Below the pieces are notes generated by a model that made no database searches, was not told the DNA's origin, and was given only the letters and a program-made list of their open reading frames with translations. Positions 3,522-12,971 of a stretch of DNA of 64,000 bases are shown piece after piece (the stretch's first letter is position 1; each line of letters begins with the position of its first letter). The position numbers were made by a program, and so were the translations under genes. Location of the stretch: the NCBI GenBank assembly GCA_029265815.1, contig JAJUGU010000003.1, positions 186,001 through 250,000 on the forward strand. The letters run 5' to 3'. Origin of the DNA: Anaerolineaceae bacterium (GTDB lineage: Bacteria > Chloroflexota > Anaerolineae > Anaerolineales > Anaerolineaceae).

Positions 3522-4418
3522 GTGAAGCCTAAGGTGAGTAAACAGAAGCAAATTACGGGGCTGCTTTATGGCCTTGTAGCAGGTTTAACGTTCGCAGTTT
3601 TAGCTTGGGGGATTGATGGAATACAGTTAGCTCGTGCGCACGGTGCTTTTTCATGGGTGAAATTCGTTCCAGGTCTTCTGATATGCGTTATCTGCAGTGG
3701 TCTGGTTGGCTGGCTGGTGGCAAAATTTGAGAATAGCCTTCTAGGCGTTGTTTTATGGTTTGCGTTGATGATCGTTTATTCTCAATTGATCATCTGGTTA
3801 CCAATACGAGTGGCACCTTTCCTGATCAAACTTTTCAATGGAGCCCTCGGAAATTACCTGCAGTATCCCTATTATTCTGAACTCAATCAAAACCTCTGGT
3901 TTGGGTTTGCGGTATTCGCGATTATCGCCATCATTAACGGGTTGATTGAAAACATCCTCATTGACCAGGCACTTTTTTCAGCAGGATCGGCAGCAGTAAT
4001 CATTCCGTTGCTTGTTTGTGCTCTGAGCTTTGGGTTGGCTGGTTCGATTGGTGATTCGTTGTTAAATAAAAACTTACGCGAACCGATTCAAATTGTTGAT
4101 GAACTGATCCAGTTTGCCCAAGACAATTATGAAAAAGAGGTTCCATCTGATGTTGCCAAGGCTATGCATCTTGGTGCTTTAAATCCAGTAATGCAGTACG
4201 TTCCACTTGATAGAAAACTGGTATTAAGCAATTATGATCAGTATCTGGGACAGGTTGAGGTGCTGGTGGATTTTGAGGGTAAATGGATCAAATGCGTTAC
4301 CATTTACAATCAGGTAACCAATTGCAGACCGGCTTTTGAAATCCCTTCAATTCGATTAACCAGCATTAAAAAATTTGTTGAGGTGATGACCCCGGGAGAA
4401 TCACCGAATTACCAATAA
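3522..4418 (+). CDS. Polytopic membrane protein of unknown function
   Basis: 298 residues with a GTG start preceded by AGAGG. I do not recognise a family. The first 185 residues contain about five hydrophobic segments (approximately 12-30, 45-66, 72-95, 124-145, 152-175), separated by short loops. The last 110 residues are soluble and include a mostly helical stretch (IQIVDELIQFAQDNYEKE) followed by a beta-rich tail of about 60 residues. The last segment could be a cytoplasmic sensory or binding domain. It has its own likely promoter and is followed by 134 nt before the oligopeptide ABC ATPase, so it may be an independent unit. No catalytic motif is visible. Confidence 0.7.
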   Translation: MKPKVSKQKQITGLLYGLVAGLTFAVLAWGIDGIQLARAHGAFSWVKFVPGLLICVICSGLVGWLVAKFENSLLGVVLWFALMIVYSQLIIWLPIRVAPFLIKLFNGALGNYLQYPYYSELNQNLWFGFAVFAIIAIINGLIENILIDQALFSAGSAAVIIPLLVCALSFGLAGSIGDSLLNKNLREPIQIVDELIQFAQDNYEKEVPSDVAKAMHLGALNPVMQYVPLDRKLVLSNYDQYLGQVEVLVDFEGKWIKCVTIYNQVTNCRPAFEIPSIRLTSIKKFVEVMTPGESPNYQ

Positions 4419-4552: not shown

Positions 4553-5542
4553 ATGGTCGAACAATTGTTAAACGTACAGAATCTTGAGACTCACTTTAAG
4601 ACACCTGAAGGGATCGTCCATGCGGTTAATGGTGTTTCATTTACATTAACTGAAGGCGAAACTCTTGGTGTGGTAGGCGAGAGCGGCTGTGGCAAAAGCG
4701 TTACGATGCTTTCCTGCCTGAGGTTGATTGCCTGTCCACCGGGAAAGATCGTAGCCGGAGAAGCGATCTTCAGGGGTAAGGATCTGTTGAAAATGAGCTC
4801 CGAGGAAATTCGCCATGTTCGCGGTGGCCAGATCAGCATGGTCTTTCAGGACCCAATGACGTCGCTGAATCCCGTAATGACCATCGGAAAGCAGCTGGCT
4901 GAACCACTAATGCTTCACCTGAACATGACTAGCGAACAAGCCCGCAATCGTTCCATTGAGCTGCTGAGCTTGGTAGGAATCCCGAACGCCGCAGATCGGC
5001 TAAAAGATTATCCTCACCAGTATTCAGGTGGTATGCGCCAGCGCGTTATGATTGCGATGGCTCTTTCCTGCAATCCTCAGATTCTGATCGCTGATGAACC
5101 AACTACGGCATTGGATGTGACCATCCAGGCTCAGATCGTTGATCTGGTCAAACGGTTGCGCGATGAGCTCGGCATGGCAATTATATGGATTACTCATGAT
5201 CTGGGCGTGGTAGCGTCAATTGCCCACCGCGTCATGGTCATGTATGGTGGTTATATCATTGAAGAGGCTGAAGTAAAGGAACTTTATGCCAATCCAAGAC
5301 ATCCGTACACACTTGGACTACTCGGAAGCCTTCCCCAGATCCATGAGCAAGCTCACACGAAATTGTTCTCCATTGAAGGAATGCCCCCAGTCCTCTACCA
5401 AAAGCCAACCGCCTGCCCGTTTGCTCCTCGCTGCACGTGGGTAACAGAGAAATGCTGGAAAGAAAATCCGCTGCTTGAACCAGTTGCTCCTGGTCATCGA
5501 GTGGCTTGCTGGGTTGATACTAAATCCGGGAGTAAGCGATAA
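4553..5542 (+). CDS. Oligopeptide ABC transporter ATP-binding protein (OppD/DppD type)
   Basis: 329-residue cytoplasmic ATPase of a peptide/nickel-type importer. Walker A GESGCGKS is at 42-49, the ABC signature SGGMR at 158-162, and Walker B LIADEP at 178-183. After the ATPase core comes the C-terminal oligo_HPY region ([14 protein letters not shown]) and a four-Cys cluster (CPFAPRC then KC and C near the end) that in OppD/DppD homologues can hold an iron-sulfur centre. It starts the operon; its stop overlaps the next ATG by one base (TAATG), so the two ATPases are translationally coupled and presumably form the heterodimer. Confidence 0.94.
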
Positions 5543-6522
5543 TGACCTCTGAAAAGAATGTTTTGATCAAAGTTGAAGATCTCGTAATGCACTTCCCCAT
5601 CTATCGCGGTGTTATTCGTCGCCAGGTGGGTGCGGTTCACGCTGTGGACGGGATTTCGTTCGAGGTATACCAGGGTGAGACACTTGGCCTGGTAGGTGAA
5701 TCAGGTTGTGGTAAGTCCACCACTGGGCGAACCATCCTTCAGTTATATAAACCCACAGGTGGAAACGTTTATTTCAAAGGCAAGAATTTGGTCAAATTAA
5801 AACCTGAGGCCATGCGCTTGATGCGACGAGAAATGCAAATGATCTTCCAGGATCCTTATGCGAGCCTCAATCCGCGTATGACCGTTCGTGATATTATCGG
5901 CGAACCTTTGATGGCGTTTGGTGAAGGCACCAGCAAGGAAATTGATGACCGTGTTGCCTCCCTGTTAGATTTGGTCAAACTGAACAAAGATTTTGCCAGC
6001 CGCTATCCACATGAATTCTCTGGAGGTCAACGCCAGCGTATCGGTGTTGCCCGTGCTCTGGCTTTGAACCCGTCCTTTATCATTTGTGATGAACCTATCT
6101 CGGCTCTGGATGTGTCCATCCAGGCGCAGGTGGTTAACCTGTTGGAAGAACTTCAGGAAGAGTTTAATCTTACTTACCTCTTCATCGCCCATGACCTCTC
6201 GATGGTGCGTCATATCAGCAATCGTGTGGCGGTGATGTACTTAGGTATTATTGTAGAACTTGCAGACCGTAACGAGCTATACAACAACCCCTTGCATCCT
6301 TATACCCAGGCTTTGCTTTCAGCAATTCCGGTGGCTGATCCTGTGTACAGCGAAACCCGCCGCCGAATTATTCTGGAGGGTGATGTGCCCTCTCCAGCCA
6401 ATCCGCCTTCAGGGTGTCGATTCCGCACACGCTGTCCGCTTGCTGATACGATCTGCAAGGAACAGAAACCTGAATGGCGTGAAGTGCGGCCAAACCATTT
6501 TGCCGCCTGTCATAAAATTTAA
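5542..6522 (+). CDS. Oligopeptide ABC transporter ATP-binding protein (OppF/DppF type)
   Basis: 326-residue partner ATPase. Walker A GESGCGKS 52-59, signature SGGQR 160-164, Walker B FIICDEP 179-185, and the oligo_HPY tail with [17 protein letters not shown]-terminal Cys-containing region ([11 protein letters not shown]...C) parallels the one in the first ATPase. The ATG overlaps the stop of the upstream gene by one base. It is followed by 108 nt and then the binding-protein gene, an order (D-F-A-B-C) found in several peptide systems outside the enterobacteria. Substrate cannot be read from the sequence. Confidence 0.94.
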
Positions 6523-6630: not shown

Positions 6631-8646
6631 ATGCGTAAGTTTTATGTTTTACTTGCTGTATTGATGGTCGTCAGCCTTGTTTTAAGCGCCTGTGCACAGA
6701 CTCCGGTTGCTACCGAAGCCCCCACCGCCGAAGCAACAGCTGCACCCACCGAAGCCGTTGAAGAGGTTTCTTTGAACCCATACTTGGGCTCGAACAAACT
6801 GGATGGAAATGGTATTCCGCCTACATTCTTCGATGATGTTCATATCCGCAAAGCCTTTGCATACTGCTTTGACTGGCAGACTGTCATCGATGATGTATAC
6901 ATGGGCGAAGCTATTCAATCCAAAGTTTTGTCCCTGCCTGGTATGCCGGGTTACGATCCCGAAGCCCCGTTCTATTCCACTGACCTTGACAAATGCGCCG
7001 AGGAATTCAAACTGGCCGATGTTGACAAAGACGGTGTCCCAGCCGGTGAGGATCCTGACGATGTTTGGGAAATGGGTTTCCGCGTTCAGATGCTCTATAA
7101 CTCGGGCAACACCACCCGCCAGATCTATGCAGAGATCCTGCAGCAGAACCTTGCAGCCGTCAACGAAAAGTTCTCGGTTGAAATCCTTGGTTTGCCCTGG
7201 CCTTCCTACCTGGCCGCTCAGCGCGCCCATAAAATCCCCATCATGACCGGTGGATGGTTGGAAGATATCCATGACGCTCATAACTGGTATCAGCCTTACA
7301 CCACAGGCACATACGGCGCCCGCCAGAATATGCCTGATGACCTGAAAGCCCAATTCAAGGCTTTGTTGGATCAGGGTGTAACCCTGGTTGACCAGGATGC
7401 CCGCCATGCTGTTTATCAGCAGTTCAACCAGTTGTACTATGATCAGGTTCCTGGTCTTCCTGTTGTTCTCGCTACTTCTCATGGTTACGAGCAGAAGTGG
7501 GTTTCTGGCCGTGTCATGAACCCGATCTTCTCAAATATCTACTACTATCCAATCACGAAGAGCGGCTCACCTGATGACACCACCTTCACCTATGTAACCA
7601 TCACTGGTGGACCTGATACCTTCGATCCTGCCCTTGCCTACGATACCGCCTCTGGCGAAATCATCCAGAACGTCTATGAAACCCTGGTGTTCTATGATGG
7701 TGAAGCCACCGATAAATTCGTACCACAGTTGGCAGAATCCTGGACCGTTTCAGATGACGGCACTGTCTGGACCTTCAACATCCGCCAGGGTGTCAAGTTC
7801 CATGAAGGTGGCGATCTGACCCCGTCTGATGTGGCTTATTCCTTCCAGCGCGGTTTGCTGCAGGGTGGATATTCCTCCCCGCAGTGGTTACTTGCCGAAC
7901 CTTTCCTCGGCGTTGGCAATGATGACATCACCATGATTGTTGATGGTGGTGCTTCTGCTGATGACAAAGAAACCCTGTTGAAGAACGACCCCGCCGTCCT
8001 CAAGGCTGCCTGCGAAAAAGTTCAGGCCGCAATCGTGGCTGACGACGCCGCTGGCACCGTGACCATGACCCTTGCACAGGCCTGGGGTCCCTTCCTGGCG
8101 ACCATTGCCAATGGTTGGGGTTCCATCATGGATAAGGAATGGGTAATCGAGAATGGTGGCTGGGATGGTTCCTGCGATACCTGGCAGAATTACTATGGTA
8201 TGACCTCTGCCGAGGATCCTTTCACCGCCATCATGAACGGCACCGGTCCCTTCAAACTGGATCACTGGACAAACGGACAGGAAGTTGTCTTGGTTCGCAA
8301 CGACAATTACTGGCGCGAACCTGCTAAACTGCAGTATGTAAAGATCGTCGAAGTCGGCGAGTTTGGTACCCGCTTTGCGATGCTGCAGGCCGGCGAAGCT
8401 GATGCCATTGTTGTCCCCGCTGAATACCGCGCCCAGGTCGACCCGCTTGTGGGTGAGGCCATGATCTATGATGCAGAAGCCAATACCTACAAAGCCGCAC
8501 AGCCTGTTTGCGAAGTTGATACCGATAAACTGGGTCTCGAAAGATTCACTCTTTGCGATACCCCCAGCGATCAGCCTCTGCGCCTGTACTACGGACGCCC
8601 TGGCTTGCAGCAGGATGTTATCCTCTTCAACTTCTTGATTGAGTAG
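6631..8646 (+). CDS. Oligopeptide-binding lipoprotein (SBP_bac_5 family), circularly permuted
   Basis: 671-residue extracytoplasmic binding protein with lipobox LVLSAC (Cys21) and a Thr/Ala/Pro-rich linker to about residue 46. The domain order is unusual. Residues 47-311 match the C-terminal half of the family: VHIRKAFAYCFDW is at 70-82 and the half ends with IYYYPITKS. Residues 312-671 match the N-terminal half: GGPDTFDP 326-333, VKFHEGGDLTPSDVAYSF from 388, GTGPFKLDHW 537-546, ending at FLIE. In the canonical paralogue at 11013-12971 the equivalent motifs run in the opposite order (174, 268, 386). Joining FLIE to SLNPYLGSNK would restore a normal protein. The frame is intact and the gene sits in the expected place, between the ATPases and permeases. 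It should still deliver peptides if the permuted chain folds; an unusual assembly error is the alternative. Confidence 0.9.
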   Translation: MRKFYVLLAVLMVVSLVLSACAQTPVATEAPTAEATAAPTEAVEEVSLNPYLGSNKLDGNGIPPTFFDDVHIRKAFAYCFDWQTVIDDVYMGEAIQSKVLSLPGMPGYDPEAPFYSTDLDKCAEEFKLADVDKDGVPAGEDPDDVWEMGFRVQMLYNSGNTTRQIYAEILQQNLAAVNEKFSVEILGLPWPSYLAAQRAHKIPIMTGGWLEDIHDAHNWYQPYTTGTYGARQNMPDDLKAQFKALLDQGVTLVDQDARHAVYQQFNQLYYDQVPGLPVVLATSHGYEQKWVSGRVMNPIFSNIYYYPITKSGSPDDTTFTYVTITGGPDTFDPALAYDTASGEIIQNVYETLVFYDGEATDKFVPQLAESWTVSDDGTVWTFNIRQGVKFHEGGDLTPSDVAYSFQRGLLQGGYSSPQWLLAEPFLGVGNDDITMIVDGGASADDKETLLKNDPAVLKAACEKVQAAIVADDAAGTVTMTLAQAWGPFLATIANGWGSIMDKEWVIENGGWDGSCDTWQNYYGMTSAEDPFTAIMNGTGPFKLDHWTNGQEVVLVRNDNYWREPAKLQYVKIVEVGEFGTRFAMLQAGEADAIVVPAEYRAQVDPLVGEAMIYDAEANTYKAAQPVCEVDTDKLGLERFTLCDTPSDQPLRLYYGRPGLQQDVILFNFLIE

Positions 8647-8784: not shown

Positions 8785-9849
8785 ATGACCAATTACATTA
8801 TTCGCCGCTTGCTTCTTGTACCAGTCCTGCTTTTTGGAGTAACAGTGATCATCTTCGCTATGCTCCAATTTTTGGAACCGGTTGAGCGGTCTGCTTTATA
8901 TGTGAAAGATTTTCCCAAGAACGAGAAACAGATCGAAGGCATTATTAAGAAATACGGATTAGATCAGCCGATCTACGAACAGTATTACCGCTGGCTTGTT
9001 GGACATGTGGATCCTGCAACAGGCATCCGCACAGGTGGCATCATTTATGGTGATTTCGGCTACTCGCGCACTGGTTCTCAACCTGTGATCGATATGATTA
9101 AAAACCGATTCCCTAATACACTTGATCTGGCGTTGTGGACTGTGTTCCCGATGCTTTCGGTAGGCATCTGGCTGGGAGTTAAGGCTGCTGTTCACCAGAA
9201 TGGATTTGTTGACCAGGCCGCCCGTATTTTTAGCATCGTCGGTACCTCATTTCCTACTTTCGTGTTTGGCTTGTTGGTTTTAATCTTATTCTATGCCAAA
9301 CTCGGGTGGTTCCCACCGGGAAAAATGTCGGATTGGGTCAGTCAACTGATCTTCTCAGGTCAATTGAAACAATACACACATCTGTTAACCATTGATGCAT
9401 TATTGAACGGAAGGTTCGATGTGTTCTGGGATGCTCTTAAGCACATGATCCTGCCTATTCTGACACTCTCATACATCAACTGGGCTACATTTGTGCGTGT
9501 TACCCGCTCTTCCATGCTCGAAACGCTGCGTATGGAATATGTGGTTACCGCACGTGCAAAAGGATTATCCGAGAAGACCGTGATCAATAAACATGCCCGG
9601 CCGAACGCAATGCTTACTATCGTTACTCTGGCGGGTATGCAGGTTGTTGGTTTGTTAGGCGGTGTAGTCATCACTGAGACAGTGTTCAACTACCCGGGTA
9701 TTGGGCAGGCAGCCGCAAATGCAGCCCAACAACTGGATGTTGTTACCGTGTTGGGTTTTGCAGTTTTCAATGGTTTTATTTTGATTGTGGCAAACCTGAT
9801 CGTTGATATCCTCTACGGAGTGATTGATCCTCGAGTACGCCTGGATTAA
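8785..9849 (+). CDS. Oligopeptide ABC transporter permease (OppB/DppB type)
   Basis: 354-residue inner-membrane permease. The N-terminal MTNYIIRRLLLVPVLLFGVTVIIF helix and the long periplasmic loop are typical of DppB. Six transmembrane segments are predicted, and the cytoplasmic EAA loop that docks on the ATPase reads EYVVTARAKGLSEKTVINKH followed by RPN. The start is set by GAGGTG 6 nt upstream. It lies 11 nt before the second permease, with which it would form the translocation pore. It is separated from the binding-protein gene by two hairpins. Confidence 0.94.
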   Translation: MTNYIIRRLLLVPVLLFGVTVIIFAMLQFLEPVERSALYVKDFPKNEKQIEGIIKKYGLDQPIYEQYYRWLVGHVDPATGIRTGGIIYGDFGYSRTGSQPVIDMIKNRFPNTLDLALWTVFPMLSVGIWLGVKAAVHQNGFVDQAARIFSIVGTSFPTFVFGLLVLILFYAKLGWFPPGKMSDWVSQLIFSGQLKQYTHLLTIDALLNGRFDVFWDALKHMILPILTLSYINWATFVRVTRSSMLETLRMEYVVTARAKGLSEKTVINKHARPNAMLTIVTLAGMQVVGLLGGVVITETVFNYPGIGQAAANAAQQLDVVTVLGFAVFNGFILIVANLIVDILYGVIDPRVRLD

Positions 9850-9860
9850 GGAGAAAAAGA

Positions 9861-10901
9861 ATGACAACTCTTACAACACCCAGTGCTGATAATTCATTAC
9901 TAAAAGAGGTGCTTCCGGACCGGAAAATTGGCCGCGTTGAACGAATCTTGGGTCCAGAGAACTACCGCATTGTAAAAGGCCTTTTAAAAACACCAGCCTC
10001 CATTCTAGGCTTTATCTTGATTGGAATTTTTGTACTGATTGCGATCTTTGCTCCTCTCATTGCCCCACCGGTAGGGAATGATCCGTATAAAATTCCAAGA
10101 GATGGGTTTGGTGGTGAACCGAAACCAATGGGAACTGAATGGAAAAAGAATGTTCCTGATATTCCCTTCTGGTATAAAGCCGTTACTGGAAAAGACGAAT
10201 GGGTTCATTTGCTGGGGACCGCTCAGGGACAGTACGACATTTTCTACGGCATTATCTGGGGAACGCGCACTGCCTTTAAGACCGGTTTTATCGTGGTTGT
10301 GGCTACTTTCCTGATCGGCGTCATCATTGGATCGATTTCAGCGTATTATGGCGGTATCGTTGATAATATTCTTATGCGCATAGTGGATATCTTCATGACC
10401 ATCCCATTTATTATGATGGCCTTGATCATGGCCGCCGTATTGACGCCAATGATTGGAAGGAGCTTGATACCTGCCACGCTGGCATTGATTACATTCGGCT
10501 GGATGGGATATTCTCGCGTGATCCGTGCAGATATCCTTTCGGTCAAACAACGCGATTTTGTCTTGGCTGCCCGTGTTGCAGGCGTGAAGGATGGTCGTAT
10601 TTTGTTCAAACATATTATCCCCAACGCAATCTTCCCCACGCTGGTGTTGGCTTCGCTCGGCATTGGTGATGTCGTGCTCAGTTTTGCCGCTCTTTCCTTC
10701 CTTGGAATAGGTACCGAAATCGGTTACGCTGACTGGGGACAGGTGTTGAGCTTTGCCCGTAACTGGATTACCAGCCTTGGCGATTACTGGTACATCGTTG
10801 TCTGGCCTGGTCTTACTCTTATGTTCTTTGTCATGGGTTGGAACCTGGTCGGCGATGCCATGCGCGATGTGCTGGATCCAAGAATGCGCGGAAAATCTTA
10901 A
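9861..10901 (+). CDS. Oligopeptide ABC transporter permease (OppC/DppC type)
   Basis: 346-residue permease partner. It has the extra N-terminal region of DppC proteins, a first transmembrane helix at about 53-75 (ILGFILIGIFVLIAIFAPLI), a roughly 70-residue external loop, and five further helices. The EAA loop reads DFVLAARVAGVKDGRILFKH followed by IIPN. The C terminus (GDAMRDVLDPRMRG) is the standard family ending. AAGGAG precedes the ATG. The operon ends at the intrinsic terminator 20 nt downstream. Confidence 0.94.
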   Translation: MTTLTTPSADNSLLKEVLPDRKIGRVERILGPENYRIVKGLLKTPASILGFILIGIFVLIAIFAPLIAPPVGNDPYKIPRDGFGGEPKPMGTEWKKNVPDIPFWYKAVTGKDEWVHLLGTAQGQYDIFYGIIWGTRTAFKTGFIVVVATFLIGVIIGSISAYYGGIVDNILMRIVDIFMTIPFIMMALIMAAVLTPMIGRSLIPATLALITFGWMGYSRVIRADILSVKQRDFVLAARVAGVKDGRILFKHIIPNAIFPTLVLASLGIGDVVLSFAALSFLGIGTEIGYADWGQVLSFARNWITSLGDYWYIVVWPGLTLMFFVMGWNLVGDAMRDVLDPRMRGKS

Positions 10902-11012: not shown

Positions 11013-12971
11013 ATGGGAATTCGAAATCATACCATCCGAATGGCAGCTGTCAGTATTATTATTACAGCATTCTTCTTAACAGCTTGCGGTGAAGCCAAAC
11101 CTTTTCCGTCTGCCAGTGTAACACAAACTTCCGAAGTGACTCTTACACCGACCGTGGAACCGCAAAAGACGCTTGTGGTTTGTTTGGGTGAAGAACCAGA
11201 AAGTCTATATCTCTATAATCATTCATCAATTGCCATGTGGAGTGTGCTTGAAGCCATCTACGATGGTCCAATCGACACAGAAAATTTTGAACCCTCCGCC
11301 GTTATTCTAAAAGAACTACCCTCGCTGGATGGGGGGGGTGTTTCGTTGCAATCTGTACCCGTTACCGCGGGTGATGCTGTGGCGAATATCGAAGGGGATA
11401 TCGTAGCGCTTGAAAAGGGAGTGAAAGTATTCGCGGATGGTTGTACATCGGCTGAGTGTGCCACTGAATGGGATGGAGTATCACCACTTAATCTGACCCA
11501 GATGGTAGTCAAATTTCAAATCCTTGATTCGATCAAATGGTCAGATGGACAGCCATTAACTGCTGAAGATTCCGTTTTTTCCTTTAACATCAGCGCCGAT
11601 CCCGACACGGATGTTACAAAAACAAATATCAAACGCACCTTATCTTACACAGCACTTGATGATCACACGATTGAGTGGGTGGGAAAACCCGGTTACCTCA
11701 CATTAAATCCTTCTGCTTTCTTCTGGGTACCCCTTCCAAAACATATTCTTGGAAATTTAACCGCTGAACAGCTTAACACAAATGAACTTGCTAACAGAAT
11801 GCCAATCGGCTGGGGACCATATCAAATCGATGAATGGGTGACAGGAGATCATATTCGTTTAACAAAAAATCCGTTTTACTTCCGCAGTAATGAAGGGTTG
11901 CCGTACTTTGATGTTGTCGTTTATCGATTTATCAGTGCGGTACCTGAGGCTGACCTGTCATCAGTAGTAACTGGCGAATGCGATATCATCGATACCTCTG
12001 TCGCACTTGAAACTCAGATACACTCCATTAGAGAACTTGAACTTTCGGGCAATATAAAAGCCTATTTTGGTATGGGGCCTGAATGGGAAGGATTAAATTT
12101 TGGTATTAAACCTGCTTCATATGACGATGTTTATAATCCATACGAAGATCGGCAAGATTTCTTTGGAGATGTCAGGGTAAGACAGGCCTTTGCCTATTGT
12201 ATCGACCGCGAAAAAATCGCCAGCGAGGTTCTGTTTAGCCAATCAACAATTCCTGATTCGTATCTACCACCGACTCATCCATACGCAGGCCAAAACTTGA
12301 CTTCGTATGTGCATGACCCCATACTGGGAAATCAGCTGCTTGAAGAAGCAGGTTGGGTAGATTCTGACGGTAATCCTTCCACTCCGCGAGTTGCTGAAAA
12401 TGTGGCGAATGTTACCTGGGGAACAGAGTTCATACTCAACTACTATTTGACTGAAAGTCAACTACATTCAAGTGTGTCAAATATCGTAATCGATTCTCTA
12501 GCAGAATGTGGTGTTAAAGTGAATCGTACCTACCTGAACGTAGATGATATGTATGCTTCAGGGGCAAACAGCATTGTTTTTGGCCGCAATTATGATCTGG
12601 TGGAATTAGCCTGGTCTACCGGTCGGCAGCCCCCGTGTTTTCTTTACTCGTCTTCTGAAATTCCAACCGAGAAAAATGATTGGCTTGGAACGAAATACGG
12701 CGGCGTAAACCTTACAGGTTTTTCAAATGAAGAATACGATGCTGTTTGCACGCAATCCCTTACAGCCGGACTTGATAAAGATTTATTTATTGCCAGTGCA
12801 CAAAGGGTTCAAGATATTTTGGCTGATGAGGTGCCTGTCCTTCCTTTGTTCTATCATGTGAAAGTGGTTGTGTCACGACCAGACCTGTGCGGTTTACAAT
12901 TCGATGTTTCATCGCGCAGCGCATTGAAAGATATCGAAGAATATCAGATTTCGACAGCATGTGACAAATAA
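11013..12971 (+). CDS. Oligopeptide-binding lipoprotein (SBP_bac_5 family), canonical order
   Basis: 652-residue binding protein with a signal peptide ending in FFLTAC (Cys25). The family motifs are in normal order: KTLVVCLGEEP near 53 opens domain I, IKWSDGQPLTAEDSVFSF starts at 174, GPYQIDEW at 268 and DVRVRQAFAYC at 386-396. It is about 100 residues longer than E. coli DppA, mainly from an inserted loop around 105-150. It lies after the operon terminator with a -10 element of its own and no permease beside it, so it may feed the upstream permease with a different peptide, or be an orphan. AAGGAAAA precedes the ATG; an internal Met10 is a less likely start. Confidence 0.92.
   Translation: MGIRNHTIRMAAVSIIITAFFLTACGEAKPFPSASVTQTSEVTLTPTVEPQKTLVVCLGEEPESLYLYNHSSIAMWSVLEAIYDGPIDTENFEPSAVILKELPSLDGGGVSLQSVPVTAGDAVANIEGDIVALEKGVKVFADGCTSAECATEWDGVSPLNLTQMVVKFQILDSIKWSDGQPLTAEDSVFSFNISADPDTDVTKTNIKRTLSYTALDDHTIEWVGKPGYLTLNPSAFFWVPLPKHILGNLTAEQLNTNELANRMPIGWGPYQIDEWVTGDHIRLTKNPFYFRSNEGLPYFDVVVYRFISAVPEADLSSVVTGECDIIDTSVALETQIHSIRELELSGNIKAYFGMGPEWEGLNFGIKPASYDDVYNPYEDRQDFFGDVRVRQAFAYCIDREKIASEVLFSQSTIPDSYLPPTHPYAGQNLTSYVHDPILGNQLLEEAGWVDSDGNPSTPRVAENVANVTWGTEFILNYYLTESQLHSSVSNIVIDSLAECGVKVNRTYLNVDDMYASGANSIVFGRNYDLVELAWSTGRQPPCFLYSSSEIPTEKNDWLGTKYGGVNLTGFSNEEYDAVCTQSLTAGLDKDLFIASAQRVQDILADEVPVLPLFYHVKVVVSRPDLCGLQFDVSSRSALKDIEEYQISTACDK

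Follow-up and report, generated by a model that had tools for sequence, protein, structure and literature searches.

In the stretch of 64,000 nucleotides from an Anaerolineaceae genome analysed here (the window), one gene inside an oligopeptide importer operon appears to be written in the wrong order: the part of its product that should close a substrate-binding protein comes first, and the part that should open it comes last. Does this order reflect a faulty assembly, a decaying gene copy, or a binding protein that has been circularly permuted in nature? And if the last is true, is the gene a solitary curiosity? The features that bear on these questions are collected in Table 1.

Table 1. Permuted gene, its parts and its operon neighbours in the window (approximate ranges for the two joints)
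Feature	Position	Strand	Remarks
oppD-type ATPase	4553..5542	+	best NCBIfam model OppD, under its curated cut-off
oppF-type ATPase	5542..6522	+	best NCBIfam model OppF, under cut-off
circularly permuted SBP_bac_5 (cluster C) lipoprotein gene	6631..8646	+	one open frame, 671 aa, ATG start, TAG stop
residues 1-46: lipoprotein signal peptide and low-complexity linker	6631..6768	+	lipobox LSAC (C21, by eye)
joint of anchor linker and the fold's new N-terminus	6755..6785	+	NPYLGSNKLDG
residues 47-311: canonical C-terminal half	6769..7563	+	PF00496 profile 211-364; starts directly after hinge loop
joint of old C-terminus and old N-terminus (fused old ends)	7540..7590	+	...NIYYYPITK to SGSPDDTTFTYV...
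residues 312-671: canonical N-terminal half	7564..8643	+	PF00496 profile 1-186; last strand is the hinge, ...VILFNFLIE
oppB-type permease	8785..9849	+	Opp2B/NikB/Opp4B NCBIfam models, under cut-off
oppC-type permease	9861..10901	+	Opp4C/Opp2C/NikC NCBIfam models, under cut-off
second SBP_bac_5 lipoprotein, distantly related	11013..12971	+	canonical order (PF00496 18-360)

Pfam recognizes a single family in the window protein at E <= 0.001, namely SBP_bac_5 (PF00496), with 220.4 bits and E 5e-65 for the whole protein against a gathering cut-off of 32.4. In the whole protein, residues 362-604 correspond to profile positions 1-186, and the piece 47-311, when submitted alone, corresponds to positions 211-364 of 368. 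Because profile positions 211-364 precede 1-186, instead of following them from N to C, the protein is a permuted variant and not a standard member of the family. Two phmmer alignments with PDB sequences give the same picture: query residues 66-304 match a cluster C chain at about 277-518, and residues 316-597 match at about 8-254. The first-pass annotation of this DNA had read the second half ahead of the first within one uninterrupted frame, had set the boundaries of the three parts where Table 1 has them, and had described the downstream paralogue as normally ordered. All of this holds. The order is confirmed by Pfam, with the piece 47-311 submitted alone, and by phmmer; the boundaries agree with Pfam and with comparison of orthologues; and the paralogue matches PF00496 in one stretch. 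Each canonical half is thus present once, the old ends are fused and the new ends lie within the old chain, as in natural circular permutants. The signal peptide resembles by eye those of canonical orthologues, for example MRKLFALLSLLVVASMLLAAC, and C21 is invariant in all eight permuted proteins of one alignment.

The place where the chain was opened can be read from a canonical orthologue (L062), which passes through the hinge as DVLLYNWNI-ATSEESP-NPYIGSGKLDGNGIP, whereas the window protein ends with DVILFNFLIE and begins, after anchor and linker, with NPYLGSNKLDGNGIP. The opening therefore lies in the inter-lobe hinge loop. The old ends are joined directly, YYYPITK-SGSPDDTTFTYV. Exactly two joints had been proposed to account for the whole change. 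Both joints stand, with the small correction that about 4-7 residues of the hinge loop in the canonical orthologues compared (for example ATSEESP in L062 and ATAG in L014) are absent from the permuted proteins. These comparisons support a circular permutation in place, during which the old ends were fused, the hinge loop was reopened and the signal peptide was retained.

The surroundings of the gene are those of a regular importer. Two ATPases precede the binding protein and two permeases follow it, which is the arrangement of an Opp/Dpp/Nik-type ABC importer operon, and the earlier claim of an intact opp operon around the permuted gene proved correct, with oppD and oppF upstream and oppB and oppC downstream. 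Since the neighbours stay under the NCBIfam cut-offs, we assign no named importer subtype. The same neighbourhood accompanies the permuted order elsewhere: oppD-oppF upstream and oppB-oppC downstream are found in 21 of 29 same-order loci, six others are cut by a contig end and two deviate (L050 and L051). The full oppDF-SBP-oppBC arrangement is also present in 17 of 25 canonical loci from Chloroflexota (L062-L081 and L084-L088). As for the two deviating loci, L050 has oppF-oppD downstream on the opposite strand. In L051 no oppD or oppF was seen upstream, although another permuted copy in the same genome (L052), at the edge of a contig, has both genes.

Could a mis-joined metagenome contig have produced the swapped order? 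The window genome is split over 26 contigs, and 28 of the 29 same-order loci belong to metagenome-assembled genomes. Against this, the frame is uninterrupted, and both joints are found again in 29 of 72 relative loci from public genomes, some of them contig-cut; the remainder comprise one locus opened at another site (L091), 38 canonical and four single-half loci. The 29 loci represent 28 genomes by record title, with 57-82% identity to the window protein over the best segment, and one of them lies inside a 4.1-Mb contig of a cultured isolate, Longilinea arvoryzae KOME-1. Most of the substitutions found across the fused joint in the ten pairs tested are synonymous. The first-pass annotation had proposed a search of related genomes for the same order, and had named a close canonical relative, with this assembly alone permuted, as the observation that would overturn its reading; the search yielded the opposite. 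Because the two joints are common to so many genomes, we regard the artefact as already refuted and reject assembly error, to which we leave practically no probability, on the shared joints, the isolate and the synonymous substitutions. Genomes of the same genus, family and order point in the same direction. A match at E <= 1e-40 was obtained in 24 of 61 of them, with ten full-length proteins in window order (the window genome G000 included), two with half-length fragments only (G006, G008), one opened at another site (G027) and eleven canonical; this set is not independent of the 72 loci, as the same genomes may occur in both.

A decaying or chimeric paralogue without function could likewise be imagined, since a second, canonical binding protein resides in the same operon and could carry the transport instead of the permuted one. 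The window genome, however, holds one full-length copy of the permuted gene and otherwise only partial matches to it, and the permuted gene is kept in its operon across many genomes. No broken same-order frames other than at contig ends were found among the retrieved orthologues. Further, dN/dS amounts to 0.05-0.16 in all ten chosen pairs of permuted genes, and to 0.04-0.22 in the same number of chosen pairs over about 40 codons round the fused junction. The pairs were chosen among 13 genes and the ratios worked out from dN and dS; they are rough for the four of ten pairs in which dS exceeds 1. On account of operon conservation, low dN/dS and frames broken at nothing but contig ends, we reject decay as very improbable. 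Canonical orthologues of Anaerolineae (e.g. L062, L014, L067) occupy the same operon slot wherever the contig reaches, share 63-70% identity per half and have a similar signal peptide; they differ in their canonical order and intact hinge loop.

One confident fold is predicted for the window protein. AlphaFold2, supplied with 87 aligned rows, modelled the whole chain of the window protein with pLDDT 91.8 and pTM 0.86. In VIA-align, model residues of about 310-661 lie on the first 240-270 or so residues of cluster C chains (1dpp 1-264, for example), with Z 21.5-23.5 and 1.9-2.7 A over 233-263 residues among the best 50 rows. Because VIA-align is sequential, it mainly compares residues 310-661, and the assignment of the C-terminal half rests on homology and pLDDT. 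Foldseek gave TM-scores of only about 0.3-0.4 over some 300 columns; both programs align in sequence order and so cover one block of each model. Regarding the ligand, Asp436 of DppA, which together with Arg383 holds the dipeptide according to the available text of the report (PMC12136057), aligns in hmmer with D212 of the window protein, and D212 is invariant in eight of eight aligned permuted proteins. Arg383 aligns with M154, and a methionine is found there also in canonical L062 (GFRVQM). The pairing of Arg383 with M154 does not support dipeptide specificity. Judged from these alignments, ligand residues seem unaffected by the permutation. We are confident that the window gene encodes a genuine and presumably functional lipoprotein, the naturally permuted substrate-binding component of an Opp/Dpp-type ABC importer.

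The permutation had been taken for one unusual event. This proved too narrow, as the window gene belongs to one of six permuted groups with three cut sites in Pfam coordinates. To recognize permuted proteins with any cut site, we relied on an alignment (A3) that covers the fused junction, so that any protein which matches almost the entire alignment can be called permuted. Few candidates were scored per genome, and the resulting counts are therefore lower bounds. Matches spanning the junction were obtained in at least 6 of 400 Chloroflexota genomes, of which 21 gave some match at E <= 1e-40, and in at least 12 of 396 Anaerolineae genomes (E <= 1e-79), a set that overlaps the former. Among archaea, they occur in at least 10 of 101 genomes related to that of L091 (Thermoplasmatota, the L091 genome included), at least 6 of 292 genomes of its phylum (E <= 1e-70, overlapping the set of 101) and at least 4 of 200 genomes in the phylum of L096 (Thaumarchaeota).

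Cut site 1 is the hinge, with PF00496 profile positions of about 180-187 on one side, and is used by groups A, A2 and E. Group A has the window order. Group A2 consists of L153 and L154 from other Anaerolineae (families f21 and f126), and a contig-cut protein (L114, f25) is by eye opened at the same place. Group E (L180-L183) comes from archaea in the phylum of L096 and carries a CARDB spacer that separates the fold from the membrane anchor; of the four proteins two were scanned, and the domain scored above its cut-off in L180 (E 5e-6) and below it in L183 (0.0024). Cut site 2, at profile positions of about 280-284, is shared by L016 of genome G027 (group B, Anaerolineae) and by archaeal group C, that of L091, from Thermoplasmatota and relatives. 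Site 3 lies at about 85-100, in lobe II, and is represented by L156 and L157 and the fragment L155 (group D, Anaerolineae, family f133, genomes G729, G708 and G765 for L155-L157). The complete group D proteins begin after the anchor linker with TPPNWLKWHDPAAEA...NGTGP and end with ...GGWDGTC plus one residue.

Nine complete permuted members of group C (L091, L139-L141, L143-L147) share a loosely similar extra C-terminal tail, which is absent in four canonical relatives (L103, L148, L149 and L150). An AlphaFold-type model of L091 reached pLDDT 87.7 and pTM 0.82, and its residues of about 216-600 match cluster C chains over their first 320-340 or so residues, a stretch that crosses the hinge (VIA-align, Z 22.9-24.9). 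Among ten longer pieces with a permuted gene of group A, A2, B, C or D, oppB- and oppC-type genes adjoin in nine; the tenth (L165) ends within the permuted gene and has oppD and oppF upstream.

How many times did the permutation arise? Trees were computed after the segments had been restored to canonical order. Sets of 20, 34, 37, 26 and 34 rows were hand-picked after a 98-row tree, and since the groups were named after the first tree, the p values are indicative. L028, L052, L057, L041 and redundant group A rows were left out (29 rows were reduced to 21), and partial L114, L142 and L155 were never included. In these trees canonical homologues appear as the likely ancestral form and the permuted form as inherited, as expected of natural permutants. 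Group A requires two changes on free trees, as one or two branches among canonical proteins; one clade is not rejected (p-AU 0.30, 34 rows) and we therefore count it as one origin. Joining A and A2 into one clade is rejected, with lnL lower by 131.7 and p-AU 7e-65 (26 rows). Groups D and E form clades of their own, each with support of 100/100 (37-row and 34-row tree, respectively). Group B groups with canonical L018 (98/98, 37-row tree) and apart from archaeal C in the 98-row tree, a placement that is unsure, since the branch of L016 is long and drew a warning from the program. Group C as one clade is rejected (p-AU 2e-6, 20 rows), as canonical L148 and L150 are nested inside it; in conflict with the tree, the similar C-terminal tails indicate a common origin and we count it once. 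We suggest for this group a single origin, perhaps with a reversion in L148 and L150. In total, our counts suggest five or six separate origins, six with one each for A, A2, B, C, D and E, and five if one pair joins.

Reversion might have been more common than that, so that fewer, ancient permutations were followed by returns to canonical order. The fused junctions are alike in groups A, B and C, and both the nested canonical archaeal proteins with their rejected single clade and the two changes in group A would find an explanation. Yet the cut sites differ between the groups (A/A2/E, B/C and D), a difference left unexplained by reversion; A and A2, in spite of the same cut, are not one clade and have canonical proteins between them; the tail is shared by the permuted C proteins; and each reversal requires a further rare rearrangement. 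We consider this history unlikely. It is more probable, in our opinion, that cluster C proteins of tethered importers were permuted repeatedly, in six groups through five or six events at three cut sites, and that the tether was moved each time. Three of the openings would fall at the hinge and two at the second site, docking may have been tuned in this way, and the change may have been reversed in archaea (L148, L150).

Circular permutation is classically explained by tandem duplication of a gene, in-frame fusion of the copies and loss of the outer halves. For the window gene, tandem duplication of an ancestral canonical gene within an oppDF-SBP-oppBC operon is the most likely beginning. The copies would then be fused, old C-terminal end to old N-terminal start, through a short linker. 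Once the outer halves were lost, the second half would directly follow the original signal peptide and linker, and the new C-terminus would fall in the hinge loop. The product would be the usual two-lobed flytrap that hands peptides to an OppBC-type permease. What the permutation would alter is the entry of the tether, moved from the old N-terminus to the inter-lobe hinge. Such a route fits the retained signal peptide. A loose search of long frames revealed no fused tandem intermediate, and inspection by eye of the three forward frames in the 138 bases that follow the stop codon showed no relic of a second half; with neither intermediate nor relic found, the duplication route is one that we infer. 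Two candidate intermediates were examined and rejected. The 2087-aa frame of genome G469 (L158:715-6975, minus strand), the longest frame listed, encodes one canonical SBP_bac_5 domain together with fibronectin, beta-helix and Ig-like domains. In G511, a frame of 1249 aa proved to be two overlapping frames in L159 with one canonical protein.

Was the permutation selected because it moved the tether? Entry at the hinge or another site might aid docking of a membrane-bound binding protein, an idea put forward for TpMglB-2 in the accessible text of its report (PMC4990184). In the complete permuted proteins, inspection by eye shows either a lipobox or a membrane segment at the N-terminus. Halanaerobiales proteins without a lipobox (L093, L094, L097 and L098) are all canonical, and the 20 matches at E <= 1e-38 among 299 genomes in the phylum of these relatives (that of Halanaerobium L094) include none that spans the junction. 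On the other hand, anchors are also present in canonical relatives from the same groups. Anchoring is thus not sufficient, and the evidence from the tether is suggestive. A neutral permutation, tolerated through presumed closeness of the ends, fits the data equally well. We entertain adaptive re-anchoring as a possibility to which we give somewhat less than even weight.

The closest known system is TpMglB-2 (Tp0684) of Treponema pallidum, a natural circular permutant classified as "Type Ic / cluster Bc", whose two-lobed fold and ligand binding were shown by its authors; as far as the available text of their paper goes, permuted relatives are mostly tethered and exist in other bacteria too (PMC4990184). 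Like the window protein, it is described as a naturally permuted, anchored lipoprotein of an ABC importer. Unlike it, TpMglB-2 belongs to the cluster B sugar-binding family, and its hinge contains an additional, fourth crossover. The window protein is a cluster C protein in which PF00496 is the sole match at the threshold given above, its chain is opened in the hinge loop, and its permuted relatives, some of them archaeal, fall into several groups with three cut sites; the two topologies are compared here by description. Canonical cluster C proteins such as DppA and OppA (PF00496) are homologous in both halves, have similar operon partners and superpose on the N-terminal half; swapped halves, an anchor entering at the hinge and fused old ends set the window protein apart. 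Permuted halves of ribose-binding protein, according to the accessible part of the source (PMC9815098), likewise illustrate that new ends can be accommodated in parts of a binding-protein fold, in this case in laboratory-made constructs from a different family of binding proteins. Natural permutation of a cluster C protein had been put forward as not known to be described. For cluster C this stands, as the open-access library searched yielded no natural case among the matches listed, and the one paper there whose available text contains both SBP_bac_5 and circular permutation mentions them apart. Binding proteins in general do have the cluster B precedent; TpMglB-2 is the only natural permuted binding protein recognized among the matches listed. 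The window group is the first natural cluster C case that we could find in this search, and apparently a recurrent one.

Natural circular permutation has mostly been described as a single old event per family. Here, one family, mostly in one operon position, has seemingly been permuted several times and in two domains of life. As canonical sister genes are still present, the order of events, the preference for cut sites and the effect of the tether are directly testable. Annotators may find it worth checking the profile order in SBP_bac_5 proteins, and the permuted proteins offer natural templates for permuted binding-protein sensors.

One more gene of the neighbourhood deserves mention. Upstream of oppD, at 3522-4418 of the window, lies a gene for a 298-aa protein that is hydrophobic by eye and gave no match in the Pfam scan. 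Its relatives are found in 22 of the 29 same-order loci versus 1 of the 25 canonical loci of Chloroflexota (L068, with 33% identity).
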